Shown here: piece after piece, positions 21,730 through 38,241 of the stretch | How positions within the stretch are numbered: position 1 is the stretch's first letter | Layout: each line of letters opens with the position of its first letter | NCBI GenBank assembly: GCA_900469965.1 | Contig: UBZP01000017.1 | Coordinates: forward strand, 62,001 to 126,000 | Origin: Hyphomicrobiales bacterium | Lineage (GTDB): Bacteria; Pseudomonadota; Alphaproteobacteria; Rhizobiales; Rhizobiaceae | Length of the DNA stretch: 64,000 nt | Direction: 5' to 3' | Position numbers and translations under genes: made by a program | The notes under the pieces: generated by a model | Database searches by the model: none | The model's input: only the letters and a program-made list of their open reading frames with translations | What the model was told of the DNA's origin: nothing

Positions 21730-22230
21730 ATGGACCAGGGGTTCTTTCTTCTGTTCGCCACGGTGTCCGTGATCACGGCCCTGATGCTGGTCGTGGCGCG
21801 AAATCCGGTGCACAGCGCCCTGGCGCTGATGGCCTGCTTCCTGCAGATTTCGGCAATCTTCGTCCTGCTCGAGGCGCCGCTGCTCGCGGTGATCCAGATC
21901 TTCGTCTATGTCGGCGCGATCATGGTCCTGTTCCTGTTCGTGATCATGATGATCGACATGCGCGAAGCCGTTCTGCAGCGGTTTCTGCCGGGCGGAAACC
22001 TGCCGGCCCTGGTGCTGCTGGTCGTGCTCGGGGTCGAGATGATCGTGCTGGTGTTCTGGAGCGACAGCTTCTCGGTCGCGACGCCTGCCACGGCCGGCGG
22101 CGGCGATACGATCCGAACGCTCGGCACGACGCTCTTTGCCGACTATCTCCTGCCGTTTGAAGCCGCCTCCGTCATCCTGCTCGTGGCCCTCGTCGGCGCC
22201 ATCGTCCTGGCGCGGAAGGAGCCGGGCTGA
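21730..22230 (+). CDS. nuoJ: NADH-quinone oxidoreductase subunit J
   Basis: 166 residues, five membrane helices. Helix 3 region [24 protein letters not shown] is the NuoJ hallmark with the pi-bulge segment. It belongs to the proton-translocating membrane arm. GGGAGGG precedes the ATG. It is the first gene of the plus-strand cluster, unlike the standard order where nuoA leads. The stop overlaps the nuoK start by one base. Confidence 0.96.
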
Positions 22231-22532
22231 TGGTGCCGCTTTCCTGGTCTGTCCTGCTCGGCGTGGTCCTGTTCGTCATCGGCGCGGGAGGCGTGCTGCT
22301 TAGGCGCAACATCCTCGTCGTATTGATGTCGCTGGAGCTGCTGCTCAACTCGGTCAACATCAACTTCATCGCCTTCGGGCGTCACTACGACGATTTCCGC
22401 GGCCAGATCTTTGCGATCTTCGTGATCGCCATCACGGCGGCGGAAGTCGCCGTCGCCCTTGGCATCCTCGTCGCACTCGTGAGGAACAAGCACACCCTCA
22501 AGGTGGACGACGTCACCATCATGAAAGGATAG
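22230..22532 (+). CDS. nuoK: NADH-quinone oxidoreductase subunit K
   Basis: 100 residues, three membrane helices. The two conserved membrane glutamates are visible in [16 protein letters not shown] and [16 protein letters not shown]. It links the quinone-side module to the antiporter-like subunits. Translationally coupled to nuoJ (TGATG). Confidence 0.97.
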
Positions 22533-22536
22533 CGGC

Positions 22537-24000
22537 TTGGACCCGGCGATTTCGATCCGGCCGCTCGTTGCCGTCGCCGTTCCCGGTCTGGCGGCGCTCG
22601 CCATCCTTGTGCTGCGCAACCGTGAAACGCTGAGGGACGCCGTTTCGCCGCTCGCTGCGGTTATCCTGCTTGCGATCGTCGCCTCGATGGCGCCGACGGT
22701 GCTTTCGGGTGGGACGGTCGATCTGCGCCTGTTCGAGATCCTGCCGGGGATTGACTTCGCGTTCCGGGCCGACGCGCTTGGCATGGTGTTCGCCACGGTG
22801 TCGTCGCTCCTGTGGGTGCTGGCCGCGATCTATTCCATCGGCTACATGCGGCACCTGAACGAGCACGCGCAGACCCGCTTCTTCGCCTGTTTCGCCACCA
22901 GCATCGCTGCAGCCGTCGGCGGCGCCTTCGCCGCCAATCTGTTCACGCTGGTCATCTTCTACGAGGTGCTGAGCCTCGTGACCTACCCGCTCGTCTATCA
23001 CCACGAGGACGAGGAGGGATGGAGGGGGGGCCGCAAGTACCTCGTCTATCTGATGGGCGCCTCGAAGAGCGTCCTCCTCGCGGCGCTGGCGCTGACCTAC
23101 ACCATCGCAGGCTCGCTCGACTTCGTGCCGGGCGGGCTTCTGGCGGATGCCAACGCCTCGCCGGCGCTGCTGGCGACCGTCTACTTCTGCTACCTGTTCG
23201 GCTTCGCCAAGGCCGCCGTCATGCCGATGCACGCCTGGCTGCCTGCCGCCATGGTGGCGCCGACACCGGTGAGCGCGCTCCTGCATGCCGTGGCCGTCGT
23301 CAAGATGGGCGTGTTCTGCGTGTTGCGCCTGGTGTTCGACGTCTTCGGGGTCGGGCTGGTCGGCAGGCTCGGTCTCGGCATCGCCACCGCCTACCTGGTC
23401 TCGTTCACGATCCTGATGGCGTCGGTCTACGCGCTGACGCGGGACGACCTGAAGGCGAGGCTCGCCTATTCGACGGTGAGCCAGCTCTCCTACATCGTGC
23501 TGGGCGCGGTTCTGGTGTCGCCGGTCGCGATGGTCGGCGGCATCATCCATATCGCCGCGCACGCCTTCTCCAAGATCACGCTCTTCTTTTGCGCCGGCTC
23601 GATCTACTGCGCGTCGGGAAAACGCAACATCAGCGACATGGCCGGCATCGGCCGCAGGTTGCCCTGGACGATGGGCGCCTTTTTCGTCGCCTCGCTGAGC
23701 ATGATCGGGATCCCGCCGACAGCCGGTTTCGTCAGCAAGTGGTATCTGGCGCAGGGAACGGTGGAGGGAGGGCAGGTCGCCTTCCTGGTCGTGCTCCTGG
23801 CGAGTTCGGTCCTCAACGCGGCCTACTTCCTGCCGGTCAGCTATGCCGCCTTCTTCCAGCCGGAGCCACAGGACGGTCGGCCGCCGGTTCGCGAGATTCC
23901 GATGGTGGCCGTCCCGCTGGTGGCGACCGCGGCGCTCTCGGTCTTGATGGGGATCTTCCCCGGCTATTTTCTCACGCTCGCGGACGGAGTGGTCAGATGA
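22537..24000 (+). CDS. Extra antiporter-like complex I subunit (MrpD/NuoM-like)
   Basis: 487 residues, about 14 membrane helices, no C-terminal lateral helix. Pump residues are present: glutamate in VIFYEVLSLVTYPLV (helix 5), lysine in GFAKAAVMPMHAWLP (helix 7), histidine/lysine in LLHAVAVVKMG (helix 8) and lysine in FVSKWYLA (helix 12). Starts with TTG; AAAGGA lies 7 bases upstream and no ATG fits. It resembles MrpD and NuoM more than NuoL. Together with the next large subunit, NuoM and NuoN it makes four antiporter-like subunits in the locus. Confidence 0.9.
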   Translation: MDPAISIRPLVAVAVPGLAALAILVLRNRETLRDAVSPLAAVILLAIVASMAPTVLSGGTVDLRLFEILPGIDFAFRADALGMVFATVSSLLWVLAAIYSIGYMRHLNEHAQTRFFACFATSIAAAVGGAFAANLFTLVIFYEVLSLVTYPLVYHHEDEEGWRGGRKYLVYLMGASKSVLLAALALTYTIAGSLDFVPGGLLADANASPALLATVYFCYLFGFAKAAVMPMHAWLPAAMVAPTPVSALLHAVAVVKMGVFCVLRLVFDVFGVGLVGRLGLGIATAYLVSFTILMASVYALTRDDLKARLAYSTVSQLSYIVLGAVLVSPVAMVGGIIHIAAHAFSKITLFFCAGSIYCASGKRNISDMAGIGRRLPWTMGAFFVASLSMIGIPPTAGFVSKWYLAQGTVEGGQVAFLVVLLASSVLNAAYFLPVSYAAFFQPEPQDGRPPVREIPMVAVPLVATAALSVLMGIFPGYFLTLADGVVR

Positions 24001-24251
24001 TCAGGCATATCGTCGACTTCTTTGGTGACGAGGCCCATGCGCGGCTCCGCCGCCGGCTGTTCTATCTGGTGCTGGTCCTGGTCGTCGCCGCCGACTTCGT
24101 CGTTCCCCGCGAACATGCCGAATATCTCTGGGAGCGCCTGCCGGGCTGGTCCGCCGCCTATGGCTTCGGCTCCTGCGTGCTGCTGATTTTCGTTTCCAAG
24201 TTCCTGGGCCACCAAGGCGGGCTGATGCGGCGCGAGGACTATTATGACTGA
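23997..24251 (+). CDS. Small two-helix membrane protein embedded in nuo operon
   Basis: 84 residues, MIRHIVDFFGDEAHARLRRR followed by two hydrophobic segments (FYLVLVLVVAADFVV and GFGSCVLLIFVSKFLG) and an acidic tail MRREDYYD. Its ATG overlaps the stop of the preceding subunit (ATGA), and its 3' end overlaps the start of the next by 8 bases. Such coupling implies a structural or assembly part of the membrane arm, possibly spacing the two extra pumps. I do not recognise a named family. Confidence 0.8.
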   Translation: MIRHIVDFFGDEAHARLRRRLFYLVLVLVVAADFVVPREHAEYLWERLPGWSAAYGFGSCVLLIFVSKFLGHQGGLMRREDYYD

Positions 24252-26037
24252 TGTCTTCGTCCATCCGGGCCTGCTGTTTATCCTCGGCGCCCTGCCGATC
24301 CCCTTCCTCAAGGGGGCGATCCGCAACGCCTACCTGCTGCTGATCCCGGTGCTGGCGATCCTCGCCGTGCTCACGCTGCAGCCGGGTACCTACGGTGCGG
24401 CAAGCTTCGCCGGGCAGGACATTCTCTTCGCAAAGGTCGACAAGCTCAGCATCGTCTTCGCCACCGTCTTCACCCTCATGGCGCTGATCGGCATGGTCTA
24501 TGCGCTGCACGTAACGGCTGCCGGCCAGCATGTGGCGGCCTTCGTCTATGTCGGCAGCGCGCTCGGGGTGGTGTTCGCCGGCGATTACCTGACCCTCTAC
24601 CTGTTCTGGGAGGCAATGGCGTTCGCGTCCGCCTACCTGGTCTTCGCGCAGGGCGGGGAGCAGGCGATCCGGGCCGGATTCCGTTATCTGATGGTCCATA
24701 TCACCGGCGGCCTCGCCCTGTTCGGCGGCATCGTTCTGCACGGGCTCGCCACCGGCTCGCTGCTCTTCGGTCCGATCGAAGGCGGCCCGATCGGAGGCGG
24801 CCCGATCGAAGGCGGTATGAGCCTGGGCGCCTATCTGATCATGGCCGGATTCTTGCTCAATGCGGCGGTGCCGCCGCTCAATGCCTGGCTCACGGATGCC
24901 TATCCCGAGGCGACCGTCACGGGCGCGGTGTTCATGAGCGCGTTTACCACCAAGACGGCCGTCTACGTGCTGGCGCGGGCGTTCCCGGGCACCGAGCTTC
25001 TGGTCGTGCTCGGCACCGTGATGGCGCTTTATGGCGTCGTCTATGCGGTGCTGGAAAACGACTGTCGGCGGCTGCTCGCCTATCACATCGTCAGCCAGGT
25101 GGGCTACATGGTGGCGGGCGTCGGCATCGGCACCGAATTGGCGGTGAACGGGGCCACCAGCCATGCCTTCGCGCATATCCTCTACAAGGCGCTGCTCTTC
25201 ATGGGGGCCGGCGCGGTGATCTATGTCACCGGCCGGCGCAAGCTCACCGAGCTCGGCGGGCTCTACAAGACCATGCCGTGGACGGTGGCGCTCTACATGG
25301 TCGGCGCCCTTGCCATCTCGGCCTTCCCGTTCTTCTCCGGCTTCGTCACCAAATCGATGGTGGTGGCGGCGGCCGGACAGGATCATCGCGCGATCGTGAT
25401 GCTGGCGCTGACGATGGCCTCGTCGGGGACGTTCCTGCACACCGGGCTGAAGCTGCCCTACTACATGTTCTTCGGCACGGACCGGAAGCTGCCGGCGCGC
25501 GAGCCGCCGCGCAACATGCTGGTCGCCATGGCCATGGCGGCGGTGCTTTGCATCGCGATCGGGGTGTTCCCCGGCCCGCTCTATGCGCTTCTGCCCTATC
25601 CGGTCGCCTTCGAGCCCTACACGGGGCAGCACGTCACCGAGAGCCTCGGAATCCTGATGTTCACCGCCCTGGGGTTCGTGCTGTTCCTCAAGGCGCTCGA
25701 CCCGGAGAACACGATCAGCCTCGACACCGACTGGTTCTATCGCAAGGGCGCGCGCGCCTTCATGTGGCTCGCCGAGCGACCGCTTGCGCGCTACGAACAG
25801 GCGGTGAGCAGCGTCTCCGAGGCCGTGGTGCTGCCGTTCCTGCATGGCGCGGCGCGGCTGGGGTTGCGGTTTGATCTCGGCGGCGTCGACGCCGTCGTGA
25901 ACGGTGTCGCCCGCTCGGTCCTGCGCGGCGGCGGGGCGCTGCGGCGGCTCCAGACCGGCGTCGTGACCCACTATGCACTGGCGATGATCGCCGGCGTCGT
26001 CGCCGCCGTCGTCGTCTTTGCCGTGGCCTGGAGGTAG
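24244..26037 (+). CDS. NuoL-like antiporter subunit with C-terminal lateral helix
   Basis: 597 residues. Residues 1-470 are the antiporter-like core; the remaining 120 hold a long amphipathic stretch (TDWFYRKGARAFMWLAERPL) and a last helix after RRLQTGVVTHYALAM, the NuoL-type ending. Helix-5 glutamate (LFWEAMAFAS), helix-8 lysine (FTTKTAVYV) and helix-12 lysine (FVTKSMVV) are present. At helix 7 the usual lysine is asparagine (LLNAAVPPLNAWL). A loop carries three glycine-rich repeats GPIEG/GPIGG. It is probably the distal pump and holds the arm together through its lateral helix. Confidence 0.88.
   Translation: MTDVFVHPGLLFILGALPIPFLKGAIRNAYLLLIPVLAILAVLTLQPGTYGAASFAGQDILFAKVDKLSIVFATVFTLMALIGMVYALHVTAAGQHVAAFVYVGSALGVVFAGDYLTLYLFWEAMAFASAYLVFAQGGEQAIRAGFRYLMVHITGGLALFGGIVLHGLATGSLLFGPIEGGPIGGGPIEGGMSLGAYLIMAGFLLNAAVPPLNAWLTDAYPEATVTGAVFMSAFTTKTAVYVLARAFPGTELLVVLGTVMALYGVVYAVLENDCRRLLAYHIVSQVGYMVAGVGIGTELAVNGATSHAFAHILYKALLFMGAGAVIYVTGRRKLTELGGLYKTMPWTVALYMVGALAISAFPFFSGFVTKSMVVAAAGQDHRAIVMLALTMASSGTFLHTGLKLPYYMFFGTDRKLPAREPPRNMLVAMAMAAVLCIAIGVFPGPLYALLPYPVAFEPYTGQHVTESLGILMFTALGFVLFLKALDPENTISLDTDWFYRKGARAFMWLAERPLARYEQAVSSVSEAVVLPFLHGAARLGLRFDLGGVDAVVNGVARSVLRGGGALRRLQTGVVTHYALAMIAGVVAAVVVFAVAWR
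24772..24816 (+). repeat. Three tandem 15-bp repeats inside the NuoL-like gene
   Basis: Three near-identical units GGYCCGATCGRAGGC encode GPIEG-GPIGG-GPIEG in a loop of the NuoL-like subunit. Each unit keeps the frame, so copy number can vary without breaking the gene. Confidence 0.75.
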
Positions 26038-26042
26038 CGGCG

Positions 26043-27518
26043 ATGGGGTTGCCGCTGCTCAGCCTCATCGTCCTTGTGCCCGCCGCCGGGGCGGTGGTTC
26101 TGATGGTTCTGCGCAGCGACGGCGCGGTGCGATGGACGGCGCTCGCCGTCACCCTCCTCGACCTCGCGCTCTGCATCGCCATGCTCTCCGGTTTCGACAC
26201 CACGACCCATGCGATGCAGTTTGCCGAAAAATACCCGTGGGTGCCGGCGCTCGGGATCGCCTTTTCGCTCGGTGTCGACGGCATCAGCGCCCTCTTCGTG
26301 TTCCTGACGGCGCTTCTGGGTACGGTCTGCGTGCTCGCCTCGTGGGTCGCGATCGAAAGCAGGGTCAAGGCGTTCATGGTGAGCCTGCTCGCCATGCAGG
26401 CATTGATGCTCGGGGTGTTCTGTGCGCTCGACCTCTTCCTCTTCTACGTCTGCTGGGAGGCGATGCTGATCCCGATGTATCTGATCATCGGCATCTGGGG
26501 CGGAGAGGGCCGGATCTATGCGGCGTTCAAGTTCTTCCTCTACACGCTGGCCGGCAGCCTGCTGTTCCTGGTCGGCGTCATCGTGCTCTATCAGCATGGC
26601 GGACGGACCTTCGATATCCTCGCCCTGACGGCGCAGGACCTGCCGTTCGGGATCCAGTCGTGGCTGTTCTTCGCCTTCCTCGTCGCCTTTGCCGTCAAGG
26701 TGCCGATGGTGCCGGTCCATACCTGGCTGCCGGATGCCCATGTGCAGGCGCCGACCGCCGGCAGCATCATCCTCGCCGGCGTGCTGCTGAAGATGGGCGC
26801 CTATGGCTTCTTGAGGTTCTCGCTGCCGATGCTGCCGGAGGCGTCGGTCTACTATTCGACGCTGATGCTGGCGCTGTCGGCGCTTGCGATCGTCTATGGC
26901 GGGCTGCTGGCGCTGGCGCAGGACGACCTGAAGAAGCTGGTGGCCTATTCCAGCATCAGCCACATGGGCTTCGTGACGCTCGGCATCTTCGCGCTCAACC
27001 TCCGCGGGCTCCAGGGCGGCATCCTGCAGATGTTCAATCATGGCGTGACGACGGGCGCGCTGTTCCTCTTCGTCGGCCTGATCTACGAGCGGACGCATAC
27101 GCGCAGCATCGCCGACTATGGCGGGCTGATGAAGCTCGTGCCGGTCTACACCTCGTTTCTGGCGCTGTTCACCCTGTCGTCGATGGCGCTGCCGGGGACG
27201 AATTCCTTCGTCGGCGAGCTGCTGGTGCTGTCCGGCGGATTTGCGGCGAACCTGGCGTTCGGCGCGATGGCCGTCCTGGGCGCGTTGCTGGGCGCTGCCT
27301 ACCTGCTTGGCATGTATGGAAAGGTCGCGCTCGGTCCGGTGAGCCTGGTCACGCCATACAAGATGCGCGACGTGAACGCCCGCGAGATGGCGGCGATCCT
27401 GCCGCTGGCCGCCTTCGTGCTTTGGGTCGGACTCTATCCGAAGCCCTTTCTCGCCATCACCGACGCCTCGGTGAGGCACCTGCTCGTGCAGGTCAACGCT
27501 GAGGGGGCCGGCCGATGA
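26043..27518 (+). CDS. nuoM: NADH-quinone oxidoreductase subunit M
   Basis: 491 residues, 14 helices. Helix-5 glutamate in YVCWEAMLIPMYLIIG, helix-7 lysine in FAVKVPMVPVHTWLPDAHVQAP, helix-8 lysine in GVLLKMGAYGFLRF. These are canonical NuoM signatures. GGAGGT precedes the ATG five bases after the NuoL-like stop. It overlaps nuoN by 4 bases. Confidence 0.96.
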   Translation: MGLPLLSLIVLVPAAGAVVLMVLRSDGAVRWTALAVTLLDLALCIAMLSGFDTTTHAMQFAEKYPWVPALGIAFSLGVDGISALFVFLTALLGTVCVLASWVAIESRVKAFMVSLLAMQALMLGVFCALDLFLFYVCWEAMLIPMYLIIGIWGGEGRIYAAFKFFLYTLAGSLLFLVGVIVLYQHGGRTFDILALTAQDLPFGIQSWLFFAFLVAFAVKVPMVPVHTWLPDAHVQAPTAGSIILAGVLLKMGAYGFLRFSLPMLPEASVYYSTLMLALSALAIVYGGLLALAQDDLKKLVAYSSISHMGFVTLGIFALNLRGLQGGILQMFNHGVTTGALFLFVGLIYERTHTRSIADYGGLMKLVPVYTSFLALFTLSSMALPGTNSFVGELLVLSGGFAANLAFGAMAVLGALLGAAYLLGMYGKVALGPVSLVTPYKMRDVNAREMAAILPLAAFVLWVGLYPKPFLAITDASVRHLLVQVNAEGAGR

Positions 27519-28954
27519 ACGCGGCAACGCTCTACCAGTCGGCCGTGGCGAGCCTGCCCGAGATCGTGGTGATCACCGGCGCCTGCATCCTGCTGATCCT
27601 CGGACAGCTCGTGCGGACGCGACGGGAGGACGTCCTGCTCTGGGCCTCCGTCGCGGTCGTGGCGACCGCCGCTCTTTTGACCCTGATGCCGGCGGGCGAG
27701 GTCCGCACGGCCTATGCCGGCATGTTCGTCGCCGACAGCTTCTCCGTCTTCTTCAAGTCGATCTTCTACCTGACCACGCTCCTGACGTTCCTGCTGTCGC
27801 GCAGATACGCCGATCTCGAGGGGATCGGGAGCAGCGAGTACTATGTCCTGCTGCTCTTCACCCTCTCGGGGATGATGATCATGGCCTCGGCGACGGATCT
27901 CCTGTCGATCTATGTGGGCCTCGAGCTGACGGTGCTCTGCACCTACGTGCTGACCGGTTTCCTGCGGCACGAGCGGCGGTCGAACGAGGCGGCGCTGAAA
28001 TATGTGATCCTGGGGGCCGTCTCGACCGGGATTTTCCTCTACGGCGTCTCGCTGGTCTATGGTCTCACCGGCACGACGCAACTGGACGCGATGGCCGCGG
28101 CGGTGGCCGGCGATCCACGCGATCCGGGATTGTTGCTGGCGGTCGTCTTCATCGTCGCAGGCCTGGTGTTCAAGGTCGGCGCGGTGCCGTTCCACATGTG
28201 GGTGCCGGACGTCTACGAGGGCGCGCCGACGACGATCACCGCGTTCATGTCGGTCGGACCGAAGGCGGCCGGTTTCGCGGTGATCCTGCGGGTGTTCCTC
28301 AACCCGCTGGTCGCCGGCTCGGATGCCTGGATCGTCGTCGCCGTGATCGCCGTAGTGACGATGGCGCTCGGCAGCTTCGTGGCGCTGGTGCAGGACAACT
28401 TCAAGCGCCTGCTCGCCTATTCCAGCATCGCCCATGCGGGGTTCGCGCTGTTCGGCATCGTGGCGGGCGGCGCGGACGGGATCGCCAGCGTGATGCTCTA
28501 CCTCTTGATCTACGCCTTCATGAATCTCGGCATATTCGGCATCGTCATCATGATGCGGAACGGCGCCTTCTCCGGCGAGATCATCGAGGACTATGCCGGC
28601 TTCGCCAGGTCGCATGCCGTGCTAGCGCTCCTGATGCTGCTCTATCTGTTCTCGCTGGCCGGCATTCCGCCGACGGCCGGGTTCTTCGCCAAGTTCTACG
28701 TGCTGGTCGCGCTCGTCGAGCGGGGCTTCGTCGTCCTGGCGGTCATCGCAGTGCTCTTGAGCGCCGTCGCCGCCTATTTCTACATCCGCATCGTCATGCT
28801 GATCTATATGCGCGAGCCGACAAGGGCGTTCGAACCGGCGCTGCCGCCGATGGTCCGCGCCACGCTCGCCGTGACCGCTGCCGGCACGATCGGCATCGGC
28901 CTGTTTCCGGCGTGGTTTCTGCAGCTTGCCCAGAACGCGGTGTTTGGCGGCTAA
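27515..28954 (+). CDS. nuoN: NADH-quinone oxidoreductase subunit N
   Basis: 479 residues, 14 helices. Helix-5 glutamate in IYVGLELTVLCTYVLTG, helix-7 lysine in LVFKVGAVPFHMWVPDVYEGAP, helix-8 lysine in SVGPKAAGFAV and helix-12 lysine in FFAKFYVL. It overlaps nuoM (ATGA). A gap of 132 bases follows before nuoA, so an internal promoter or processing site is possible there. Confidence 0.97.
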   Translation: MNAATLYQSAVASLPEIVVITGACILLILGQLVRTRREDVLLWASVAVVATAALLTLMPAGEVRTAYAGMFVADSFSVFFKSIFYLTTLLTFLLSRRYADLEGIGSSEYYVLLLFTLSGMMIMASATDLLSIYVGLELTVLCTYVLTGFLRHERRSNEAALKYVILGAVSTGIFLYGVSLVYGLTGTTQLDAMAAAVAGDPRDPGLLLAVVFIVAGLVFKVGAVPFHMWVPDVYEGAPTTITAFMSVGPKAAGFAVILRVFLNPLVAGSDAWIVVAVIAVVTMALGSFVALVQDNFKRLLAYSSIAHAGFALFGIVAGGADGIASVMLYLLIYAFMNLGIFGIVIMMRNGAFSGEIIEDYAGFARSHAVLALLMLLYLFSLAGIPPTAGFFAKFYVLVALVERGFVVLAVIAVLLSAVAAYFYIRIVMLIYMREPTRAFEPALPPMVRATLAVTAAGTIGIGLFPAWFLQLAQNAVFGG

Positions 28955-29086
28955 TCGATTGGATTTGCAATGGTCCGGTCGCCGGAATAGACTTGAAGCC
29001 AGGAAAGGATGCCCAAGGCCCTTCCTCCGGGACGACGGCACGAGCAGTCCCGAAGCGCGGCCTGAGCAAAGCCAAGGTGAACGGCC

Positions 29087-29452
29087 ATGGCTGCAATGGA
29101 ATTCCTGCCGGTACTTTTCATGATCGCCGGAATCGTTCTGGTGGCGCTGGCGACGCTTTTTGTCTCCTCGCTGCTGCGCCCGTCCAATCCCTATCCTGAA
29201 AAGAATGCCCCCTACGAATGCGGCATGGATGCCGCAGGTGAGGCGGCCAGCGGCCGTTTCCGGGTGCCGTTCTTCATCCTCGCGATCCTGTTGGTGGTCT
29301 TCGATGTCGAGGCGATGTTCCTCTTTCCCTGGGCCGTCGTGCTGAAAGACATCGGGCTCGTCGGCTACGTCGAGATGTTCGTCTTCATGCTGCTGCTTCT
29401 CGTGGGCTTCGCCTACGCCTGGCTGAAGGGAGCGCTGGAATGGGAGGAGTAG
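29087..29452 (+). CDS. nuoA: NADH-quinone oxidoreductase subunit A
   Basis: 121 residues, three helices, with the conserved loop NAPYECGMD (the cysteine loop near the quinone site) and [20 protein letters not shown] lies before the ATG. It starts the second sub-block of the cluster, nuoA to nuoG, and overlaps nuoB by 13 bases. Confidence 0.97.
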
Positions 29453-29943
29453 GAAACGCCATCCGAGACAGCGTTCTTTTCACCACGGCCGACAGCGTCA
29501 TCAGCTGGAGCCGGCGGTCGGCCTTGTGGCCCGAGACCTTCGGCATCGCCTGCTGCGCCATCGAGATGATCTCGGCCGGATGCGCGCGCTATGATCTCGA
29601 CCGGTTCGGCGTGGTGTTCCGCCCTTCGCCGCGCCAGTCCGACGTGATGATCATCGCCGGTACCGTGACCCGCAAATTCGCGCCCGTCGTGCGCCGGCTC
29701 TACGACCAGATGCCGGAGCCGCGCTGGGTGATCGCCATGGGCACCTGCGCCATTTCCGGCGGCGTCTACAACACCTACGCCGTGGTGCAGGGCTCGGAGA
29801 CCTTCGTGCCCGTCGACGTGCATGTGCCCGGCTGTCCGCCGCGGCCCGAGGCGCTGATGCACGGGTTCCTGCTGCTTCAGGAGAAGATCAAGCGGTCCCG
29901 CGCGCTGGCCGGGACGCCGCCCGACCGGGTCGCAGCGTCATGA
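29440..29943 (+). CDS. nuoB: NADH-quinone oxidoreductase subunit B
   Basis: 167 residues. Ligands of iron-sulfur cluster N2 are visible: adjacent cysteines in GIACCAIEM, the cysteine in [10 protein letters not shown] and the one in [10 protein letters not shown]. It donates electrons to quinone in the peripheral arm and pairs with NuoD. Overlaps nuoC by 4 bases. Confidence 0.98.
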
Positions 29944-30503
29944 GCGCGGAGATGTCCCTCATCCGCACCCTGATCTCGGAACGCTTCGGGGAGGCCATCG
30001 AGGCGCTCGGCTTCTCGCACGGGGTCCATGCCTTCGCCTCGCCGCCCGACTTGATCGTCGAGCTTTGCCGGTTCCTGAAGGAGCATCCGGCGCTGCGGTT
30101 CAATTTTCTCTCCGACGTCTGCGGGGTCGACCACTATCCCGAAACGCCGCGCTACGAGGCGGTGTACCACCTCTATTCGCTGCCGAACAAATGGCGCATC
30201 CGGATCAAGTGCCGGCTGGGTGATCCGCCGCGGATCCCCTCGGTCACGGGCGTCTGGCGCACCGCCAACTGGCACGAACGCGAGGCCTGGGACATGTACG
30301 GCATCCGCTTCGAGGGCCATCCCGATCTGCGCCGGATCTACATGTGGGAAGGCTTCGAAGGCTTTCCCCAGCGCAAGGATTTCCCCCTGCGCGGCTACAG
30401 GGACAAGCTGAACCCCTTCGGGGCCGAGGGGCCGCCCCCGACGGAGCCCGACCTCGCCACCCGGGAGATACCGCAAGGAGGCCGTTTGACGCCGGAGCGT
30501 TGA
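29940..30503 (+). CDS. nuoC: NADH-quinone oxidoreductase subunit C
   Basis: 187 residues, separate from NuoD (not the CD fusion of enterobacteria). The conserved [20 protein letters not shown] and [12 protein letters not shown] blocks are present. Next gene nuoD follows after one base. Confidence 0.97.
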
Positions 30504-30504: not shown

Positions 30505-31719
30505 ATGACCGAAGTCACCGAACTCGAGAGGCCGGAAGGCGAAGCGCTGAACACCAGGGAGGTGCTTCTCAACCTCGGCCCGCAGCACCCCAGCACCCAT
30601 GGGGTTCTCCGGCTCGTGCTCGAACTGGACGGCGAGTACGTCGAGCGCGTCGATCCGCATATCGGCTACCTGCACCGCGGCACGGAGAAGCTGGCGGAGA
30701 GCTTCACCTATACCCAGATCTTCCCGCTGACGGACCGGCTCGACTATCTCTGTCCGCCCTCCAACAACCTGGCGTTCGCGCTGGCGGTGGAGAAGCTCCT
30801 CGGCATCGAGGCGCCGATCCGCGCGCAGTACATCCGCGTCATGATGGCCGAGCTGGCGCGGATATCCGGCCACCTGCTGATCACCGGCGCGCTGCCGATG
30901 GACCTCGGCGCCATGACCGCGCTGCTTTATGCCATGCGCGAGCGCGAGATGATCATGGACCTCCTGGAAATGATCACCGGCGCGCGCATGCACACCTCCT
31001 TCTGCAGGGTCGGCGGCGTGCGCGAGGACCTGCCGGACGGGTTCCTGCCCAAGATCCGGGAATTCTGCGACATCTTCCCGAACCGGATCCGCGACTATGA
31101 ACGGCTGCTGGAGAACAACCGGGTGTTCCTCAAGCGCACCGAAGGCATCGGCGTCATCTCCGGCGAGGACGCCGTCGATCTCGGCCTGAGCGGCCCGAAC
31201 CTGCGTGCCTCCGGCGTCGACTGGGACATCCGCCGCGACGAGCCGTACGAGATCTACGACCGGCTCGAATTCAACGTCGTCACGCGCCCGGAAGGCGATT
31301 GCTACGCCCGCTGGCGCTGCCGGGTCGAGGAGATGCGCGAAAGCATCCGCATCATCGAGCAATGCCTCGACCAGATGCCCGAAGGCCCGTTCCAGGTCGA
31401 TATGCCGACGATCGCCTTCCCCGTGGACAAGGAGCGCGTGCACTGCTCGATGGAGGCGCTGATCCAGCATTTCGACCTGTCGGCCTACGGTTTCGCCGTG
31501 CCCAGGGGCGAAGTCTATTCGGCGATCGAGGCGCCGAAGGGGGAGCTGGGGTTCTACATCATCAGCGACGGATCGCCGAAGCCGTTCCGGATGAAGGTGC
31601 GGGCGCCGTCCTTCGTCAACCTGCAGGCGCTCTTCGGCGTATCCAACGCCCGCTACCTGGCCGACATGATCGCCGTGCTCGGCAGCCTCGATCCGGTGAT
31701 GGCGGAGGTGGACAAGTAG
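30505..31719 (+). CDS. nuoD: NADH-quinone oxidoreductase subunit D
   Basis: 404 residues, the 49-kDa subunit related to hydrogenase large subunits. NLGPQHPSTHGVLRLVLELD carries the quinone-site histidine, and HIGYLHRGTEKL and the C-terminal DPVMAEVDK ending are typical. Confidence 0.98.
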   Translation: MTEVTELERPEGEALNTREVLLNLGPQHPSTHGVLRLVLELDGEYVERVDPHIGYLHRGTEKLAESFTYTQIFPLTDRLDYLCPPSNNLAFALAVEKLLGIEAPIRAQYIRVMMAELARISGHLLITGALPMDLGAMTALLYAMREREMIMDLLEMITGARMHTSFCRVGGVREDLPDGFLPKIREFCDIFPNRIRDYERLLENNRVFLKRTEGIGVISGEDAVDLGLSGPNLRASGVDWDIRRDEPYEIYDRLEFNVVTRPEGDCYARWRCRVEEMRESIRIIEQCLDQMPEGPFQVDMPTIAFPVDKERVHCSMEALIQHFDLSAYGFAVPRGEVYSAIEAPKGELGFYIISDGSPKPFRMKVRAPSFVNLQALFGVSNARYLADMIAVLGSLDPVMAEVDK

Positions 31720-31735
31720 AGGAGGTTTGAACGCG

Positions 31736-32248
31736 ATGGGCATGCGCGAACAGATCGAGACGGCGGCGGCGCGGTATCCCGACCGGCGCTCGGCGATCAT
31801 GCCCGCGCTGCTGATCGCGCAGAAGGCGCATGGGCATCTGCCCGGCCCGGTGCTGGAGGAGGTGGCCGACATCCTCGGCGTCGAGCGGATCTGGGTCTAT
31901 GAGCTCGCGACCTTCTACACGCTGTTCCATACCGAACCGGTGGGCCGGTTCCACCTGCAGCTCTGCGACAATATCGCCTGCATGCTGTGCGGGGCCGAGC
32001 GCCTGTTGGCGCACATGGAAACGGTGCTCGGGATCGGCAAGGGCGGGACCACTCCGGACGGGCTGTTCACGCTTTCGACCGTCGAGTGCCTCGGTGCCTG
32101 CGAGATGGCGCCGGTGATGCAGGTCGGCGACGACTATCACGGCAACCTCGATGCCGCACGGCTGGATGCGCTCCTGGGAAGCCTTCGGGCCCATGCCGGA
32201 CGGTTGGCGACCGTCGACCCCGCATCCGCGCCATCACCGGGAGAATAG
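31736..32248 (+). CDS. nuoE: NADH-quinone oxidoreductase subunit E
   Basis: 170 residues, thioredoxin-like 2Fe-2S subunit. Cluster N1a ligands are LCDNIAC (C-x4-C) and VECLGAC. A TTG three codons upstream sits on the ribosome site, so the ATG at 31736, 9 bases after GAGGAGG, is preferred. Confidence 0.97.
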   Translation: MGMREQIETAAARYPDRRSAIMPALLIAQKAHGHLPGPVLEEVADILGVERIWVYELATFYTLFHTEPVGRFHLQLCDNIACMLCGAERLLAHMETVLGIGKGGTTPDGLFTLSTVECLGACEMAPVMQVGDDYHGNLDAARLDALLGSLRAHAGRLATVDPASAPSPGE

Positions 32249-32252
32249 CGCC

Positions 32253-33518
32253 ATGTTCGAGCCGGTTCTCCTCAAAAACATCGACCAGCCGGACAGTCAC
32301 CTGCTGTCGACCTACGAGGCCGGCGGCGGCTACCGGGCGCTGGCGAAGGTGTTGCGCGAATTCACACCGGACGACGTGGTCGAGCTCGTCAAGCAGTCCA
32401 ACCTGCGCGGTCGCGGTGGCGCGGGCTTCCCGACGGGCATGAAGTGGAGCTTCGTGCCCAAGCGCGCCGACAAGCCGAAATATCTGTGCTGCAACGCCGA
32501 CGAGGGAGAGCCCGGCACCTTCAAGGACCGGATCATCATGGAACGCGACCCGCACCAGCTCATCGAGGGGCTGGCGGTCAGCGCCTATGCGATCGGGGCC
32601 AAGACCGCCTATGTATATGTCCGCGGGGAATATGTGACGGCGATCCGTCGCCTCGAACAGGCGATCGCCGAGGCGCAGGCGAAGGGGTATCTCGGCACGG
32701 GCATTCTCGGCACGGACTTCGCCTTCGCCGTGCACATCCATTGCGGCGCCGGCGCCTATATCTGCGGCGAGGAGACCGCGATGCTGGAATCGCTCGAGGG
32801 CAGGCGGGCGCAACCGCGGCTCAAGCCGCCGTTTCCGGCCGTGGCCGGGCTCTATGCCAGCCCGACCGTGATCAACAATGTCGAGACGCTCGCCTGCGTG
32901 CCGCACATCGTCGTGCGGGGGGCGGACTGGTTCCGAAATATCGGCCCGGCCAAGAGCCCCGGCCCGAAGCTCTATTGCCTGAGCGGCCAGGTGCGCAAAC
33001 CCGGCCTCTACGAGCTGCCGATGGGAATACCGCTGCGCGAACTGGTCGAGGAGCACGCCGGCGGCGCCCTTCCGGGGCGCCGGATCAAGGCGGTGATCCC
33101 GGGCGGGGTCTCGGCGCCGGTGATCCCGGAGCGCGGGCTGGACGTGGGGATGGATTTCGATTCGCTCGCTGCCGTGGGCTCCATGCTCGGCTCGGCCGGC
33201 GTCGTCGTGATCGACGATACGACCTGCATGGTCAAGGTGGCCACCCGGATCGTCGAGTTCTTCCACCACGAGTCCTGCGGCAAGTGCACGCCGTGCCGGG
33301 AGGGATTGAACTGGGCCGTGAAGGTGATGCGCCGGATCGAGGCAGGGGAGGGCGAGCCGGGCGATCTGGAGCAGCTGGACGGGCTCTGCAAGGGCATTTT
33401 CGGCAACACGTTCTGTGCCCTGGGCGACGGCGCCGCCATGGGATTGCGGGCAGCGCTGGCGCATTTCCGCGACGAGTTCGCCGCCCATATCGAGGAGCAC
33501 AGGTGTCCGTTTCACTGA
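32253..33518 (+). CDS. nuoF: NADH-quinone oxidoreductase subunit F
   Basis: 421 residues. FMN/NADH-binding GRGGAGFPTGMKWSF and CNADEGEPGTFKDR, and 4Fe-4S cluster N3 ligands in HESCGKCTPCREG plus the later cysteine in GNTFCALGDG. It is the NADH dehydrogenase module with NuoE and NuoG. The presence of NuoE, F and G shows an NADH-type, not ferredoxin-type, complex. Confidence 0.98.
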   Translation: MFEPVLLKNIDQPDSHLLSTYEAGGGYRALAKVLREFTPDDVVELVKQSNLRGRGGAGFPTGMKWSFVPKRADKPKYLCCNADEGEPGTFKDRIIMERDPHQLIEGLAVSAYAIGAKTAYVYVRGEYVTAIRRLEQAIAEAQAKGYLGTGILGTDFAFAVHIHCGAGAYICGEETAMLESLEGRRAQPRLKPPFPAVAGLYASPTVINNVETLACVPHIVVRGADWFRNIGPAKSPGPKLYCLSGQVRKPGLYELPMGIPLRELVEEHAGGALPGRRIKAVIPGGVSAPVIPERGLDVGMDFDSLAAVGSMLGSAGVVVIDDTTCMVKVATRIVEFFHHESCGKCTPCREGLNWAVKVMRRIEAGEGEPGDLEQLDGLCKGIFGNTFCALGDGAAMGLRAALAHFRDEFAAHIEEHRCPFH

Positions 33519-33543
33519 AGAGCGACGGAGTTGCGAGGGAGGC

Positions 33544-36159
33544 ATGGTCAACATCACGATCGACGGACAGACGCTGGAGATTGAGGCCGGATCGACCGTG
33601 CTCCAGGCCGCCGAGCGGCTGGGCATCGCGGTCCCGACCTTCTGCTACATGAAGCGGCTGCCGCCGCTCGCCTCCTGCCGCATGTGCCTGGTGGAGATCG
33701 AGGGGTTGCGGCGGCTGCAGCCGTCCTGCGCCACGGCCGTCACCGACGGGATGGTGGTGCGGACGAACACGCCGCTGATCGAGGAGACGCGCGCCTCCAT
33801 GCTCGACATGCTGCTCGCAAACCACCCGCTCGACTGTCCGATCTGCGACAAGGGCGGCGAGTGCGAACTGCAGGACATGGTGATGGCCTACGGGCCCCGG
33901 AGAAGCGGCTTCCACGATTCCAAGCGCGTGTTCCACTCGAAGGACATTCGCCTCAGCCCGGTCGTCATCATGAACGTCAACCGCTGCATCCAGTGCCAGC
34001 GTTGCGTGCGGATGTGCGAGGAGGTTGTCGGCGCCGTCGCGCTGGGCACGGTCGAAAAGGGCATGGACACGGCCGTCACCGGCTTCGAAGGCAGCCTGGC
34101 GAGCTGCGACCAGTGCGGCAACTGCATCGAGGTCTGCCCGGTCGGAGCGCTGATGAGCTTCCCCTACCGCTACAAGGCGCGGCCCTGGGACCTCGCCGAG
34201 ACCGATACGATCTGCCCCCATTGCGGCACCGGCTGCCAGCTCACCGTCGGTGCGCGCAAGGGCGAGTTCATGCGGGTCCGCTCGGATTGGGAACACGGGA
34301 TGAACCGCGAGACGCTCTGCGTGCGCGGCCGCTTCGGCCTCGACTTCATCGATGGCTCGGCTCGGATCAAGCGGCCGATGATCCGCCGCGACGGCGTGCT
34401 CGTTCCCGTGTCCTGGGAGGAGGCCGGCGCGTATCTGCGCCAGCGCCTGCCGGCCGTCGAAAGCAAGGCTTGCGGCGGTCTGGCCTCGCCGCGGCTGCCG
34501 AACGAGGTGCTCTACCAGTTCCAGAAGCTGATGCGGACCGTATTCCGCACCAACAACATCGACTGCTCGTCGCGCTGGTCTACCCCGGTCGACACGCTTG
34601 CTCCGCTGGTGGCGGCTCACTACACCCGCGCCCCGCTCGAGGAACTGATCGGCAGGGACTGCGTGCTGGTCGTGGGCGGCAACGTGACCGAGGAGAACCC
34701 CGTCACCGAATACCTGCTGCGCGACGCCGCGCGGCGGCGGCAGGCCGGGTTGCTGATGCTTTCGGCGCGGCCGTCCCGTCTGGACGCCGATGCCCGCGCG
34801 GTGGTTCGCGTAACCCCTGGCGGCGAGGCCGCGGCCCTCGGCGCGGTGGTGGCCCATCTCGCGGCCGCGGCCGGCCCGGCCCTGCCTGGCGACGTCGCCG
34901 CCATGATCGGCGGGCCGGGCAGCGAGCCGACCATGGCCGCCGGCGGCGACCAACTCGATGGCCTGGCGACCGCGCTCACAGATGGCGGCAGCGTCACCCT
35001 GCTTGTCAGCGCCGACATCCTGAGGGCGCCATCGGCGCGCGCGACGCTGGAGCAGATCGGCAACTGCCTGCAGGTGCTCCGCACCCTCGGCAAGGCGCCG
35101 GCGATGCAGTTCCTTTTCGACCGCGCCAACCAGCTGGGCGCATGGGACATGGGCGCTCTGCCCTTGGCACTGCCGGGATTGCGCGACATCGCCGACAATG
35201 CGGCGCACGCGGCGTTCGAGCGGGCCTGGGGCGTCGCAATTCCGTCCGAACCGGGTGCGGATTTCGACGCGATGCTGGACCTTTGCGACAACGGGAAAAT
35301 GGGCACGCTCTACATCGTCGGGAGCGATCCCCTGATGTGCTATCCCGACCGGCATTTCGCGCAGCGGGCGCTTGCGGCAGCGGATTTCCTGATCGTCCAG
35401 GACGCATTCCTCACCGATACGGCGGGGCTGGCGGACGTGGTTCTGCCCGCAGCGAGCTACGGCGAGGAACCGGGCACCTTCACCAACAACGAGGGCCGGA
35501 TCCAGATGGTGCGCAAGTTCCGCGAGCCTGCCTTCGAGGCACGGGGCAACCTGGCGATCTTCGACTTCGTCGCGGCGCTCCACGACCACACGCTGCAGCC
35601 GTCGACGCAGGGCGAAATCTTCGACGAGATCGCCCGGCTGGTGCCCGCCTACGCGGGGCTCACCCAGGACGGGCTTGGCCGCGACGGTGCCTTTACCAGG
35701 GCGGGCCGGACAGAACCGGTCGGGCGGTTCTTCGCCCCGCCGCCGGCGCCCGTGGTCCCCGGCGAGATGATGCTGATCGTCGGCAACGGCCTGTTCCACA
35801 ACGGATATCTGACCGGGCATTCGGAGATCCTCAACACGGTCGCCGACGACCCCTATGTGGAGATGGGTGCGCAGGATGCCGCCGAGCGGGCCCTCCTGGA
35901 CGGCGACCAGGTGGTCGTGCGATCCGCGCAAGGGGACCTGACGGCGAAGCTGAAGCTCAACAGGCGTTTTCCCAAGGGGCTGGTTTTCGTACCCGAAAAT
36001 TACAGGGCCCTGCGCCTCAACAGCCTGATGCGGCGCGGCGAGTATCCCTGTCCGGTGGAGGTTGAAAGGGCGCCCGGTGTTGTCGGGGTCGTCCCGATCG
36101 CGGGCCTGGGAGCCGGAGCGCAGGATTTGGCTCAGGGCCTGCCCGGCGGCACCTCCTGA
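33544..36159 (+). CDS. nuoG: NADH-quinone oxidoreductase subunit G (long form with N7 ligands)
   Basis: 871 residues. N-terminal 2Fe-2S cysteines (CYMKRLPPLASCRMC ... SCAT), the HxxxC site in HPLDCPICDKGGEC, two 4Fe-4S motifs (CIQCQRCVRMC and CDQCGNCIEVCP), then CPHCGTGC with LCVRGRFG, the four ligands of the optional N7 cluster. A molybdopterin-oxidoreductase fold follows, ending in a dinucleotide-binding-like domain (EMGAQDAAERALLDGDQVVV). Typical alphaproteobacterial NuoG is about 690 residues and lacks N7, so this resembles the E. coli/Thermus form. It ends 15 bases from the convergent CBS gene. Confidence 0.96.
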   Translation: MVNITIDGQTLEIEAGSTVLQAAERLGIAVPTFCYMKRLPPLASCRMCLVEIEGLRRLQPSCATAVTDGMVVRTNTPLIEETRASMLDMLLANHPLDCPICDKGGECELQDMVMAYGPRRSGFHDSKRVFHSKDIRLSPVVIMNVNRCIQCQRCVRMCEEVVGAVALGTVEKGMDTAVTGFEGSLASCDQCGNCIEVCPVGALMSFPYRYKARPWDLAETDTICPHCGTGCQLTVGARKGEFMRVRSDWEHGMNRETLCVRGRFGLDFIDGSARIKRPMIRRDGVLVPVSWEEAGAYLRQRLPAVESKACGGLASPRLPNEVLYQFQKLMRTVFRTNNIDCSSRWSTPVDTLAPLVAAHYTRAPLEELIGRDCVLVVGGNVTEENPVTEYLLRDAARRRQAGLLMLSARPSRLDADARAVVRVTPGGEAAALGAVVAHLAAAAGPALPGDVAAMIGGPGSEPTMAAGGDQLDGLATALTDGGSVTLLVSADILRAPSARATLEQIGNCLQVLRTLGKAPAMQFLFDRANQLGAWDMGALPLALPGLRDIADNAAHAAFERAWGVAIPSEPGADFDAMLDLCDNGKMGTLYIVGSDPLMCYPDRHFAQRALAAADFLIVQDAFLTDTAGLADVVLPAASYGEEPGTFTNNEGRIQMVRKFREPAFEARGNLAIFDFVAALHDHTLQPSTQGEIFDEIARLVPAYAGLTQDGLGRDGAFTRAGRTEPVGRFFAPPPAPVVPGEMMLIVGNGLFHNGYLTGHSEILNTVADDPYVEMGAQDAAERALLDGDQVVVRSAQGDLTAKLKLNRRFPKGLVFVPENYRALRLNSLMRRGEYPCPVEVERAPGVVGVVPIAGLGAGAQDLAQGLPGGTS

Positions 36160-36174
36160 CCGGTCCGGCCGCCG

Positions 36175-36615
36175 TCAGTGATAGTAGGTTCCGGAAATGT
36201 AGTCGTGCAGGTCCTGCTCGGTGCGCATCGCCTCCTCCAGCCGGTGCTTGACCACGTCGCCGATGCTGACGATGCCGGCAAGGGCGTCGCCGTCCATGAC
36301 CAGCACGTGGCGCGTGCGGCGTTCGGTCATGATGGCCATCGCCACCGGCAGTATGTCCTGCGGCGAACAGGTCGCGACGTTGAGGTTCATGATGTCTGCG
36401 ACCCGCATCAGCGGAGCCTCGGTTCCGTATCTGGCGACGGCATTGCAGCAGTCCCGTTCCGATACCGTCCCCAGGCATTCCCCCCGGGACCGGCCGACGA
36501 CCACGAAGCCGATGTTGTTGTCGCGAAACAGCCGCAGCACTTCCAGCATCGTCTGGTCCGGACTGACCGAGATGACCTCGGGCGACTTGCCCTTCAGGAT
36601 TTGGTAGACCAGCAT
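36175..36615 (-). CDS. CBS-domain protein linked to nuoHI
   Basis: 146 residues made of two CBS units (VISVSPDQTMLEVLRLFRDN and NVATCSPQDILPVAMAIMTE, each ending in a GTVSERD / GIVSIGDVV strand). CBS pairs bind adenine nucleotides such as AMP, ATP or NAD(H). AGGAGG precedes the ATG. It is the last gene after nuoH and nuoI on the minus strand, 42 bases after nuoI, so it may sense energy charge or redox state for this complex (inference). Confidence 0.9.
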   Translation of the reverse strand: MLVYQILKGKSPEVISVSPDQTMLEVLRLFRDNNIGFVVVGRSRGECLGTVSERDCCNAVARYGTEAPLMRVADIMNLNVATCSPQDILPVAMAIMTERRTRHVLVMDGDALAGIVSIGDVVKHRLEEAMRTEQDLHDYISGTYYH

Positions 36616-36657
36616 CCGTGCCTCCTGTCTGCGCGCCCGGTCCGGGTGTGCGCGCGT

Positions 36658-37224
36658 TCATGTGCGTCTGATATTCCGCCACCAGTTGTAGCCCCGCGGC
36701 TCGTTCGTCTCGACCAGCACGTCCTTTTGGGTGTTCAGGCGCGCGGCGACCACGCCGCCGCCGGTCGCCGCCTTGCCCGGCTTGGCGAGCAGGTCGTCGC
36801 GGCCGATCACGAGGTCGCGGGAGGAGAAGCTGGAGAATTCGTATTGCTGGCCAAGCGCGATGGCGTCTGCAGGGCAGGCGTCCTCGCAAAGTCCGCAAAA
36901 CAGGCATCGGGCCGTGTCGATCTCGAACTTCGCCGGATGGCGATTGCCGTTCTCGTCCTCGTAGGGGACGACCTCGATGCAGTCGCAGGGACAGATCCGC
37001 GCGCAGAGCTCACAGGCGACGCATTTGATCTCGCCCGCTTCGTCGCGCTTGAGGAAATGGTGCCCGCGGTAGCGCGCATAGGGGAGCCATTTCTCCTTGT
37101 CCGGATACTGCATGGTCACGGATCTGGAGAACATGTAGCCGAACGTCAGCGCGAGGCCATTCGCCAGATCGGCGAAAAACGCCCAACCGATCCACGTCCC
37201 AGCTCTGTCCAGTGCGCGCGACAT
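36658..37224 (-). CDS. nuoI: NADH-quinone oxidoreductase subunit I
   Basis: 188 residues with two 4Fe-4S motifs for N6a and N6b (CVACELCARICPCDC and CLFCGLCEDACP). The N-terminal segment anchors it to NuoH. It is on the strand opposite to nuoJ-G, directly after nuoH. Confidence 0.97.
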   Translation of the reverse strand: MSRALDRAGTWIGWAFFADLANGLALTFGYMFSRSVTMQYPDKEKWLPYARYRGHHFLKRDEAGEIKCVACELCARICPCDCIEVVPYEDENGNRHPAKFEIDTARCLFCGLCEDACPADAIALGQQYEFSSFSSRDLVIGRDDLLAKPGKAATGGGVVAARLNTQKDVLVETNEPRGYNWWRNIRRT

Positions 37225-37254
37225 CGCCGCCCCGTTCCGGAGCCGCTGCGGCTC

Positions 37255-38241
37255 CTAAGAGATAGCAACACCAGTGATAATTATGTTCGCCAACGACAGC
37301 GGAAGCAAGACTTTCCAGCCGATCGCCATCAGCTGATCGTAGCGGTAGCGCGGGAAGGTGAAGCGGAACCACATGAACAGGTAGACGAAGAACGCCACCT
37401 TGAGCACGAACCAGACGAGCGGCGGCAGGGGGACCAGCACGCCGTTCCAGCCGCCGAAGAACAGGATCACCGTCAGGACCGACACCAGCAGCATGATGAC
37501 GTATTCGCTGACCATGAACAGCGCGAAGCGGATCCCGCTGTATTCGGTATGGAACCCCGCGCCGAGATCGCCTTCCGCTTCCGAAAGGTCGAAAGGAATG
37601 CGCTGCGCTTCGGCGAGCCCGGCGACGAAGAAGACGAAGAAGCCGACCGGCTGGTAGACGACGTTCCAGAGATCGGCCTGTGCGCGCACGATGTCGAGCA
37701 GGCTCATGGATTGCGCCAGCATGACCACCCCGATCACCGCAAACCCCATGGGGATCTCGTAGCTAATCATTTGCGCGCAGGTCCTGAGGCTGCCGAGGAC
37801 GGCGTATTTGCTGTTGGCGGCCCAGCCACCGAAGATGACGCCGTAGACCTCGATGCCGATCACCGCGATGACGAAGAGAAGCGCCACGTTCATGTCGGAG
37901 AGGTATAGCGTGATCTCGGTGCCGCGGACCGAAATGCTCTCGCCGAAAGGGATCGCGACGAACACCACGAAGGGCGGGGCGAGCGCCAGGATCGGCGCCA
38001 GCTTGAACAGGAACCGGTCGGCCTCGGCGGGAATGTGATCCTCCTTGGTCAGGAGCTTGATGCCGTCCGCCACCGGTTGCAGCAGGCCGTGCCACCCCAC
38101 CCGCATCGGCCCCATGCGCTGCTGGATGTGCCCGGCGATCTTGCGTTCCAGCCAGGTCAGCGGCAAGGGCAGCAACAGCAGGATCGCAATCAGAAACGCG
38201 ACCTTGAAGACGATCAGACCAAGGGCAACGACAGTCTCCAT
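37255..38241 (-). CDS. nuoH: NADH-quinone oxidoreductase subunit H
   Basis: 328 residues, eight helices. Conserved blocks RMGPMRVGWHGLLQPVADGIK, the acidic loop LSEAEGDLGAGFHTEYSG near the quinone channel, and LMWFRFTFPRYRYDQLM. It starts the minus-strand operon nuoH-nuoI-CBS. An upstream region of 182 bases separates it from the SDR gene. Confidence 0.97.
   Translation of the reverse strand: METVVALGLIVFKVAFLIAILLLLPLPLTWLERKIAGHIQQRMGPMRVGWHGLLQPVADGIKLLTKEDHIPAEADRFLFKLAPILALAPPFVVFVAIPFGESISVRGTEITLYLSDMNVALLFVIAVIGIEVYGVIFGGWAANSKYAVLGSLRTCAQMISYEIPMGFAVIGVVMLAQSMSLLDIVRAQADLWNVVYQPVGFFVFFVAGLAEAQRIPFDLSEAEGDLGAGFHTEYSGIRFALFMVSEYVIMLLVSVLTVILFFGGWNGVLVPLPPLVWFVLKVAFFVYLFMWFRFTFPRYRYDQLMAIGWKVLLPLSLANIIITGVAIS

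Follow-up and report, generated by a model that had tools for sequence, protein, structure and literature searches.

A further member of the rhizobial green complex I, with a NuoL replacement probably drawn from an Mrp-type antiporter

The number of antiporter-like subunits in a respiratory complex I is readily equated with the number of its pumps, as in a proposal of 5–6 ions for enlarged enzymes (PMC9040806), and a gene cluster of a Hyphomicrobiales bacterium with four such subunits raises the question of whether this equation holds. The cluster lies at positions 21730–38241 of the window, the whole 64,000-nucleotide stretch that was analysed (contig UBZP01000017.1, positions 62,001 to 126,000). 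It consists of 17 adjacent genes, J-K-D1-X-D2-M-N-A-G on the plus strand and CBS-I-H on the minus strand, and encodes the full nuo set, four antiporter-like subunits and an 84-residue protein, X. The locus is a rhizobial green complex I, a type already described, and is ordinary in its identity. It most probably encodes a second NADH:quinone oxidoreductase, whose NuoL has given way to a D1-X-D2 cassette from an Mrp-type antiporter and whose D2 is a modified module. Gene content, gene order, conservation, coexistence with a canonical complex I and the sequence features of D2 are direct observations; three of these D2 features (an asparagine in transmembrane helix (TM) 7, a long lateral helix and a NuoL-like C-terminus) turn the pump count of this enzyme into a testable question. 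The genes are as follows.

21730–22230, plus strand: nuoJ, 166 residues from ATG 21730 (PF00499, 134 bits; S. meliloti orthologue, 80%)
22230–22532, plus strand: nuoK (PF00420, 99.7 bits)
22537–24000, plus strand: D1, MrpD-like antiporter subunit, TTG start, 487 residues, key Glu and Lys present in the residue table (NF006236, 826 bits, cut-off 663)
23997–24251, plus strand: X, small protein of 84 residues, probably with two membrane helices (low-confidence model), overlapping D1 and D2; conserved in green and stand-alone Mrp loci
24244–26037, plus strand: D2, antiporter subunit replacing NuoL, 597 residues, with Asn206 instead of the TM7 Lys, a long lateral helix and a NuoL-like C-terminus (NF009310, 779 bits, cut-off 564)
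25732–25959, plus strand: lateral-helix segment of D2, W497 to G572, 76 residues (segment measurement, residue numbering from the alignment)
26043–27518, plus strand: nuoM, Glu in TM12 kept according to the residue table (TIGR01972, 621 bits, over cut-off)
27515–28954, plus strand: nuoN (TIGR01770, 510 bits, over cut-off)
29087–29452, plus strand: nuoA (PF00507)
29440–29943, plus strand: nuoB (PF01058)
29940–30503, plus strand: nuoC (PF00329)
30505–31719, plus strand: nuoD (PF00346)
31727–32248, plus strand: nuoE, start at TTG 31727 or ATG 31736 (PF01257)
32253–33518, plus strand: nuoF (PF01512, PF10589)
33544–36159, plus strand: nuoG, 871 residues, molybdopterin-type Fe4S4 and dinucleotide-binding domains by Pfam (TIGR01973, 485 bits, cut-off 470)
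36175–36615, minus strand: gene with two CBS domains, following nuoI on its strand (PF00571 in two stretches, 79 bits; present in 7/7 rhizobial loci read far enough)
36658–37224, minus strand: nuoI (TIGR01971, 167 bits, cut-off 113)
37255–38241, minus strand: nuoH (PF00146, 403 bits)

The antiporter domain PF00361 was found above the Pfam cut-off in four proteins (22537–24000, 24244–26037, 26043–27518 and 27515–28954), so that the four antiporter-like membrane subunits claimed in the original prediction are indeed present. NuoJ (PF00499), NuoK (PF00420), NuoA, B, C, D, E and F and domains of NuoG, NuoI and NuoH likewise exceeded their cut-offs. The predicted presence of all NuoA-N functions, in the order listed and at about these positions, was thereby borne out with Pfam and NCBIfam, as well as by the same order in Sinorhizobium meliloti with 74–94% protein identity. 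Green complex I has been described as an enzyme in which two MrpD-like subunits replace NuoL, encoded by a rearranged operon as in Rhizobium and Sinorhizobium (PMC9040806, PMC7415380, PMC5419562, PMC4967309), as an addition to the canonical NUO14 operon of the genome and, according to a legend, as carrying an additional 4Fe4S cluster in NuoG (PMC4967309). Two MrpD-like subunits in place of NuoL, the rhizobial type of rearranged operon and a canonical NUO14 operon alongside were all found here. The other known types do not describe the locus: the NCBIfam NuoL model TIGR01974 gives D1 and D2 only 189 and 156 bits, far below its cut-off of 407.5, so that the locus is no canonical NUO14; a single protein exceeds the NuoM model and none the NuoL model, as opposed to the two NuoM plus NuoL of the 2M complex I; and every gene of the block except X is assigned otherwise than to the MrpE, F, G and B that accompany D subunits in an Mrp antiporter.

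On plasmid pB of S. meliloti all 17 genes recur with order and strands unchanged, at 74–94% identity gene by gene and with no difference found in gene content, and the arrangement is therefore not due to chance. The complete J-K-D1-X-D2-M-N-A-G core was found in 72 of 80 named contigs, the other eight being one with an extra nuoK match (L140) and seven partial ones; these 80 loci are the best 80 of 338 D2 relatives found by peptide patterns, are close and mutually dependent relatives, and their stretches end before H and I. Four of them (L118, L125, L141, L147) contain J-N with part of A-G unseen within the stretch, possibly as a result of splits or losses. All seven loci reaching far enough (L060, L069–L074) continue with CBS, I and H on the opposite strand. 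The original prediction had taken the combination of extra pump, small protein and split operon as special to this locus; among the rhizobial loci read it is the ordinary arrangement, and it is in print as green complex I. H and I do lie on the opposite strand, as had been noted, although the two-CBS-domain gene between nuoG and nuoI had been overlooked. That gene directly follows nuoI and may encode an adenylate-sensing regulator of this complex I.

The host genome (5.34 Mb) also contains a canonical nuoA-N operon in canonical order (L061), which agrees with the prediction of a secondary enzyme that has a fourth antiporter-like subunit, and answers the search for a canonical operon that had been suggested along with it. 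Among the outcomes set against that proposal had been an order common to the clade combined with the absence of a canonical operon: the order is common, but the canonical operon exists. NuoL exceeded its curated cut-off in all 11 green-bearing genomes searched and in 12 of all 13 searched; the one without it (G572) also has no green complex in view. In a 1.6 Mb genome, two further NuoL-type matches over cut-off (G354:C27:15598-28330) are perhaps contamination. The host genome has two additional loci with Mrp-type antiporter subunits (L062, L063), and outside the window, on the same contig, two PF00361 segments occur in one open stretch of 1182 residues (L064, G000:C6:220000-238000, about 7600–11030). 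X was found in three of the seven genomes of the genus sample, the window's own included, and the locus is therefore patchy within the genus. In a phylum-wide sample, a D2 match at E 1e-100 or better was obtained in 20 of 398 genomes, four at 86–100% identity, all in the window's family, and 16 at 42–49%; in the 16 loci read, the latter showed neither the long lateral helix nor the NuoL-like tail of green D2.

The operon order was further illuminated by three genomes of genus g64 (family f62), which carry, in each case on one strand, H-I-J-K-D1-X-D2-M-N with N cut (L066), H-I-J-K-D1-X-D2 (L067) and J-K-D1-X-D2-M-N-A-B-C-D-E-F-G-CBS with J cut (L068). Pieced together from these overlapping stretches, with no single contig spanning all of them, the order H-I-J-K-D1-X-D2-M-N-A-B-C-D-E-F-G-CBS reads as a canonical operon in which A-G and H-N have traded places and NuoL has been replaced. 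The H-I pair, next to the CBS gene, would then have moved later in rhizobia. The CBS gene of L068 is only 28% identical and may encode a different CBS protein. The split operon was rejected as a peculiarity of the present locus, the g64 genes standing on one strand and the split being shared by rhizobial loci.

The D1-X-D2 cassette occurs in identical order within stand-alone Mrp antiporter clusters of Alphaproteobacteria. Searches for X gave homologues in 58 of 385 genomes at class level, 13 of 61 near ones and 55 of 297 at order level; these sets overlap, and most of the matches are weak ones counted from the search. None of the 15 stand-alone stretches opened (7 + 8) showed nuo genes beside the antiporter genes. 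Five of the eight (L165, L166, L168, L169, L172) read E-F-G-AcB-C-D-D1-X-D2, with labels assigned by comparison; in L171, D1 and X are separated by other frames, and contig ends truncate L167 and L170. MrpE, F, G, MbhD/MbhE-type and B proteins were confirmed by Pfam in both L079 and L165, and C in L079. Green D1 and D2 are nearest to those of this Mrp type, E-F-G-A(C-terminal part)-B-C-D-D1-X-D2. In a D2 tree of 47 of the 51 loci surveyed (Shimodaira–Hasegawa-like approximate likelihood ratio support, quick search, midpoint root, TM7 column retained), the green sequences form one clade (support 99) beside two stand-alone D2 with the TM7 asparagine, and lie within a group of all 20 Asn-type rows (99), which faces the complete set of 27 Lys-type rows (99). 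In the tree of D1 (48 loci), the green sequences join seven Asn-type loci (98), but the two loci nearest in the D2 tree fall elsewhere; therefore, either parts of the cassette have travelled separately in some lineages, or the trees lack resolution.

Within the cassette, D1, X and D2 overlap at their start and stop codons, X starting from ATG 23997 in an ATGA overlap with the D1 stop, and coupled translation of the three is therefore suggested. The presence of a small protein between the antiporter genes had been predicted correctly, its start being now amended to ATG 23997, which gives 84 residues. Searches of Pfam and NCBIfam (both to E 0.01) and of the PDB sequences (to E 1) gave no match for X, and its AlphaFold model reached a pLDDT (predicted local distance difference test) of 64.5.

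The first distinctive feature of D2 is residue 206, which aligns with the TM7 lysine of 56/56 non-D2 antiporter rows and of solved relatives. It is an asparagine in all 93 D2 of one set, i.e. 91 green rows and two stand-alone ones (L075, L084); the 91 green rows, like the 90 used for the lateral helix (86 distinct), hold four genomes twice. Among 50 loci with D2 in reach, 21 have the asparagine (11/11 green and 10 stand-alone), 28 have lysine and one is uncovered; in this 51-locus survey L038 has no D2 in reach, L023 ends before TM7, and 38 stand-alone loci are covered. A second stand-alone set (n = 24, nine of the genomes shared with the survey) gave 10 asparagines and 14 lysines. An origin of the asparagine together with complex I was rejected, as stand-alone Mrp D2 have it too. 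The TM5 Glu, TM8 Lys and TM12 Lys of D2 are kept wherever covered in the survey.

The second feature is the lateral helix, hereafter the strap, taken to run from the conserved Trp that follows TM15 up to and including the glycine of the LQTG motif. In green D2 it is 76 residues long in 90/90 rows, including one that matched only a looser pattern (L108). The strap of canonical NuoL has 56, 55 and 51 residues in 42, 8 and 12 of 62 rows, respectively (59 distinct, three genomes, the host's own, G602 and G419, being counted twice; E. coli, 51). The NuoL rows are all from Pseudomonadota; L236 and L186 were left out owing to failure of the motif filter or a truncated end, and the filter required the TM7 Lys motif for most rows, which are thus no evidence on TM7. 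The strap of stand-alone D2 has 55–58 residues in 10/10. In the five-module enzyme of Manganitrophus, a 26-residue lateral-helix insertion was described, absent from the rhizobial MrpD of four modules (PMC9040806). This absence is compatible with a strap of 76 residues, the rhizobial D2 being itself 20 residues longer there than the NuoL of three-module enzymes. The series would fit a ruler growing with each module, the NuoL and rhizobial values having been measured here and that of Manganitrophus taken from its description.

The third feature, the C-terminus, was examined with a profile built from the 30 C-terminal residues of 12 canonical NuoL sequences, which matched the C-terminus of 90/90 green D2 rows with 13.0–27.8 bits (median 23.9). 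Among 10 stand-alone D2, the sole C-terminal match scored -5.3 bits, and shuffled-tail controls gave C-terminal matches in 2/40, both below zero bits. In a second set, four green rows (the window and three genomes already counted) scored 22–25.6 bits and the best of 24 stand-alone D2, one of them in both sets, 1.2 bits. Therefore, green D2 has gained, or alone kept, a NuoL-like anchor, with which both a graft and convergence would fit. The stand-alone Mrp clusters thus share the D1-X-D2 order with the green locus, but differ from it in their shorter D2 strap, in the lack of the NuoL-like tail and in the absence of nuo genes from the stretches opened.

How these parts may be assembled is suggested by the strap. 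The membrane arm would run from NuoH/J/K through N, M and D1 to D2, with D1, which has all the proton-path residues, in place of the pump of NuoL. D2 would sit at the tip, its strap reaching ~20 residues (30 Å at 1.5 Å per residue) beyond that of NuoL, back along D1, M and N, and docking through the NuoL-like final helix, while X may serve as a small bridging or assembly subunit at the D1/D2 interface. Oxidation of NADH through NuoE/F/G would drive pumping through the E-channel, N, M and D1. With its TM5 Glu deprived of the TM7 Lys partner, and the TM8, TM11 and TM12 residues kept, D2 would be a modified module rather than a fourth pump of the standard kind. There is good support for four modules in one arm, but not for four equivalent pumps; of the predicted "four pumps", the four antiporter-like modules stand, and the pump count was too strong for a D2 devoid of the TM7 lysine.

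That D1-X-D2 is an independent Mrp antiporter which shares the operon and never joins complex I is very improbable. D1 and D2 do score higher with antiporter subunit D models than with that of NuoL, and the cassette does exist in stand-alone Mrp clusters; nevertheless, every gene of the block other than X has an assignment, with NuoL and MrpE, F, G and B not among them, the cassette stands between K and M, the place of NuoL, in the green loci covering it, and green D2 differs from the stand-alone D2 tested in its long strap and NuoL-like tail. Lysines K223 of MrpA and K219 of MrpD are presumably the TM7 lysines of these subunits. In the mutants MrpA-K223A and MrpD-K219A, the Mrp complex was retained and antiport completely abolished (PMC5703873). 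The TM5-TM7 Glu-Lys pair is described as a motif common to each antiporter-like subunit and the central-axis charges as essential, a slowed enzyme remaining coupled (PMC9802314), which speaks against four equivalent pumps, as does the loss of the TM7 Lys in 91/91 green D2 rows against its retention in 56/56 other antiporter rows. A D2 that nonetheless pumps fully, via the TM8 Lys or water, with five protons per NADH, is somewhat less likely than not. In its favour, its other proton-path residues are invariant in 20 green proteins, the long strap suits four modules, 5–6 ions have been proposed for enzymes with one or two extra subunits (PMC9040806), and an E. coli variant of the TMH8 Lys kept proton pumping, so that the path tolerates some changes (PMC9802314). 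The opposite redesign, in which a chimeric D2 (Mrp core, long lateral helix, NuoL-like tail) would tip a four-module arm without standard pumping, leaving D1 as the last true pump and H+/2e- at four, is put forward tentatively and is itself rather unlikely. Several points weigh against the preferred reading of D2 as a modified module at the tip. The TM7 asparagine is also found in stand-alone Mrp D2 (10/38 and 10/24, in overlapping sets) and need not mean lost function; E123, K237, H311, K315 and K370 of D2 do not vary among 20 aligned green proteins, which a dead cap would not lead one to expect; the AlphaFold2 model of D2 from 20 green sequences (pLDDT 47) is too poor for use; and the places assigned to D1 and D2 in the arm derive from the strap alone.

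A link to the high or variable proton-motive force named in the original prediction would be conjectural. A service to nitrogen fixation, a role suggested in symbiotic rhizobia, or reverse running to make NADH, is improbable. Upregulation in symbiosis was reported in strains possessing the enzyme, with a proposed role in fixation efficiency (PMC7415380), of which reverse running would be our own extension. No nifH over cut-off was found in the host genome or the 10 other green-bearing genomes, the control being positive in 3/14 genomes, and the enzyme is therefore not tied to nitrogenase in this organism; for the other genomes the negative says little because their assemblies may lack symbiotic plasmids. 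Two of these genomes, G419 and G696, match contigs of Rhizobium ecuadorense and R. croatiense, which we take to be bean symbionts, and their assemblies may lack the symbiotic plasmid.

Among other known systems, Complex_I_3 of Ca. Manganitrophaceae likewise has two MrpD-like subunits, nearest to the rhizobial ones, but differs in a second NuoM and in the further 26-residue lateral-helix insertion, which rhizobial D2 is described as lacking (PMC9040806). The 2M complex I of Nitrospira (Chadwick 2018, via PMC9040806) also has a fourth antiporter-like subunit and a lateral-helix insertion; its extra subunit, however, is a NuoM, and NuoL is retained. No prior report of the cassette in stand-alone Mrp, the 76-residue strap, the NuoL-like tail or the TM7 Asn was found in the papers accessible to the search, among them PMC7419157 and PMC9426454. 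Across the sampled lineage, one partner of the TM5-TM7 ion pair has gone from D2, whereas the strap clamping the arm has lengthened by ~20 residues. The number of modules that fit is thereby set apart from the number of protons moved, in a culturable host group (Sinorhizobium, Mycoplana). This bears on the dispute over where protons leave complex I (PMC9802314); if D2 is indeed a non-pumping tip, green complex I would be a naturally occurring test case for the model of proton exit solely via the distal (ND5-like) subunit.

A "long NuoG", previously seen as a peculiarity of the locus, does not hold, the protein having 871 residues from its likely start at 33544, shorter than the 908 of E. coli NuoG (locus 11440–14166). 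A Molybdop_Fe4S4 domain was detected by Pfam at 262–313 of the 914-residue nuoG open reading frame, at most a candidate for the green-type extra cluster. An in-frame repeat, GPIEGGPIGG, at 24769–24798 adds 10 residues to one loop of D2, and is absent from the 19 other aligned D2. Upstream of the cluster, a single open frame at 18504–21524 on the plus strand contains two BPD_transp_2 permease stretches and an ATP-binding cassette (ABC) ATPase, and may represent a fused sugar-type transporter or a frameshift between genes.

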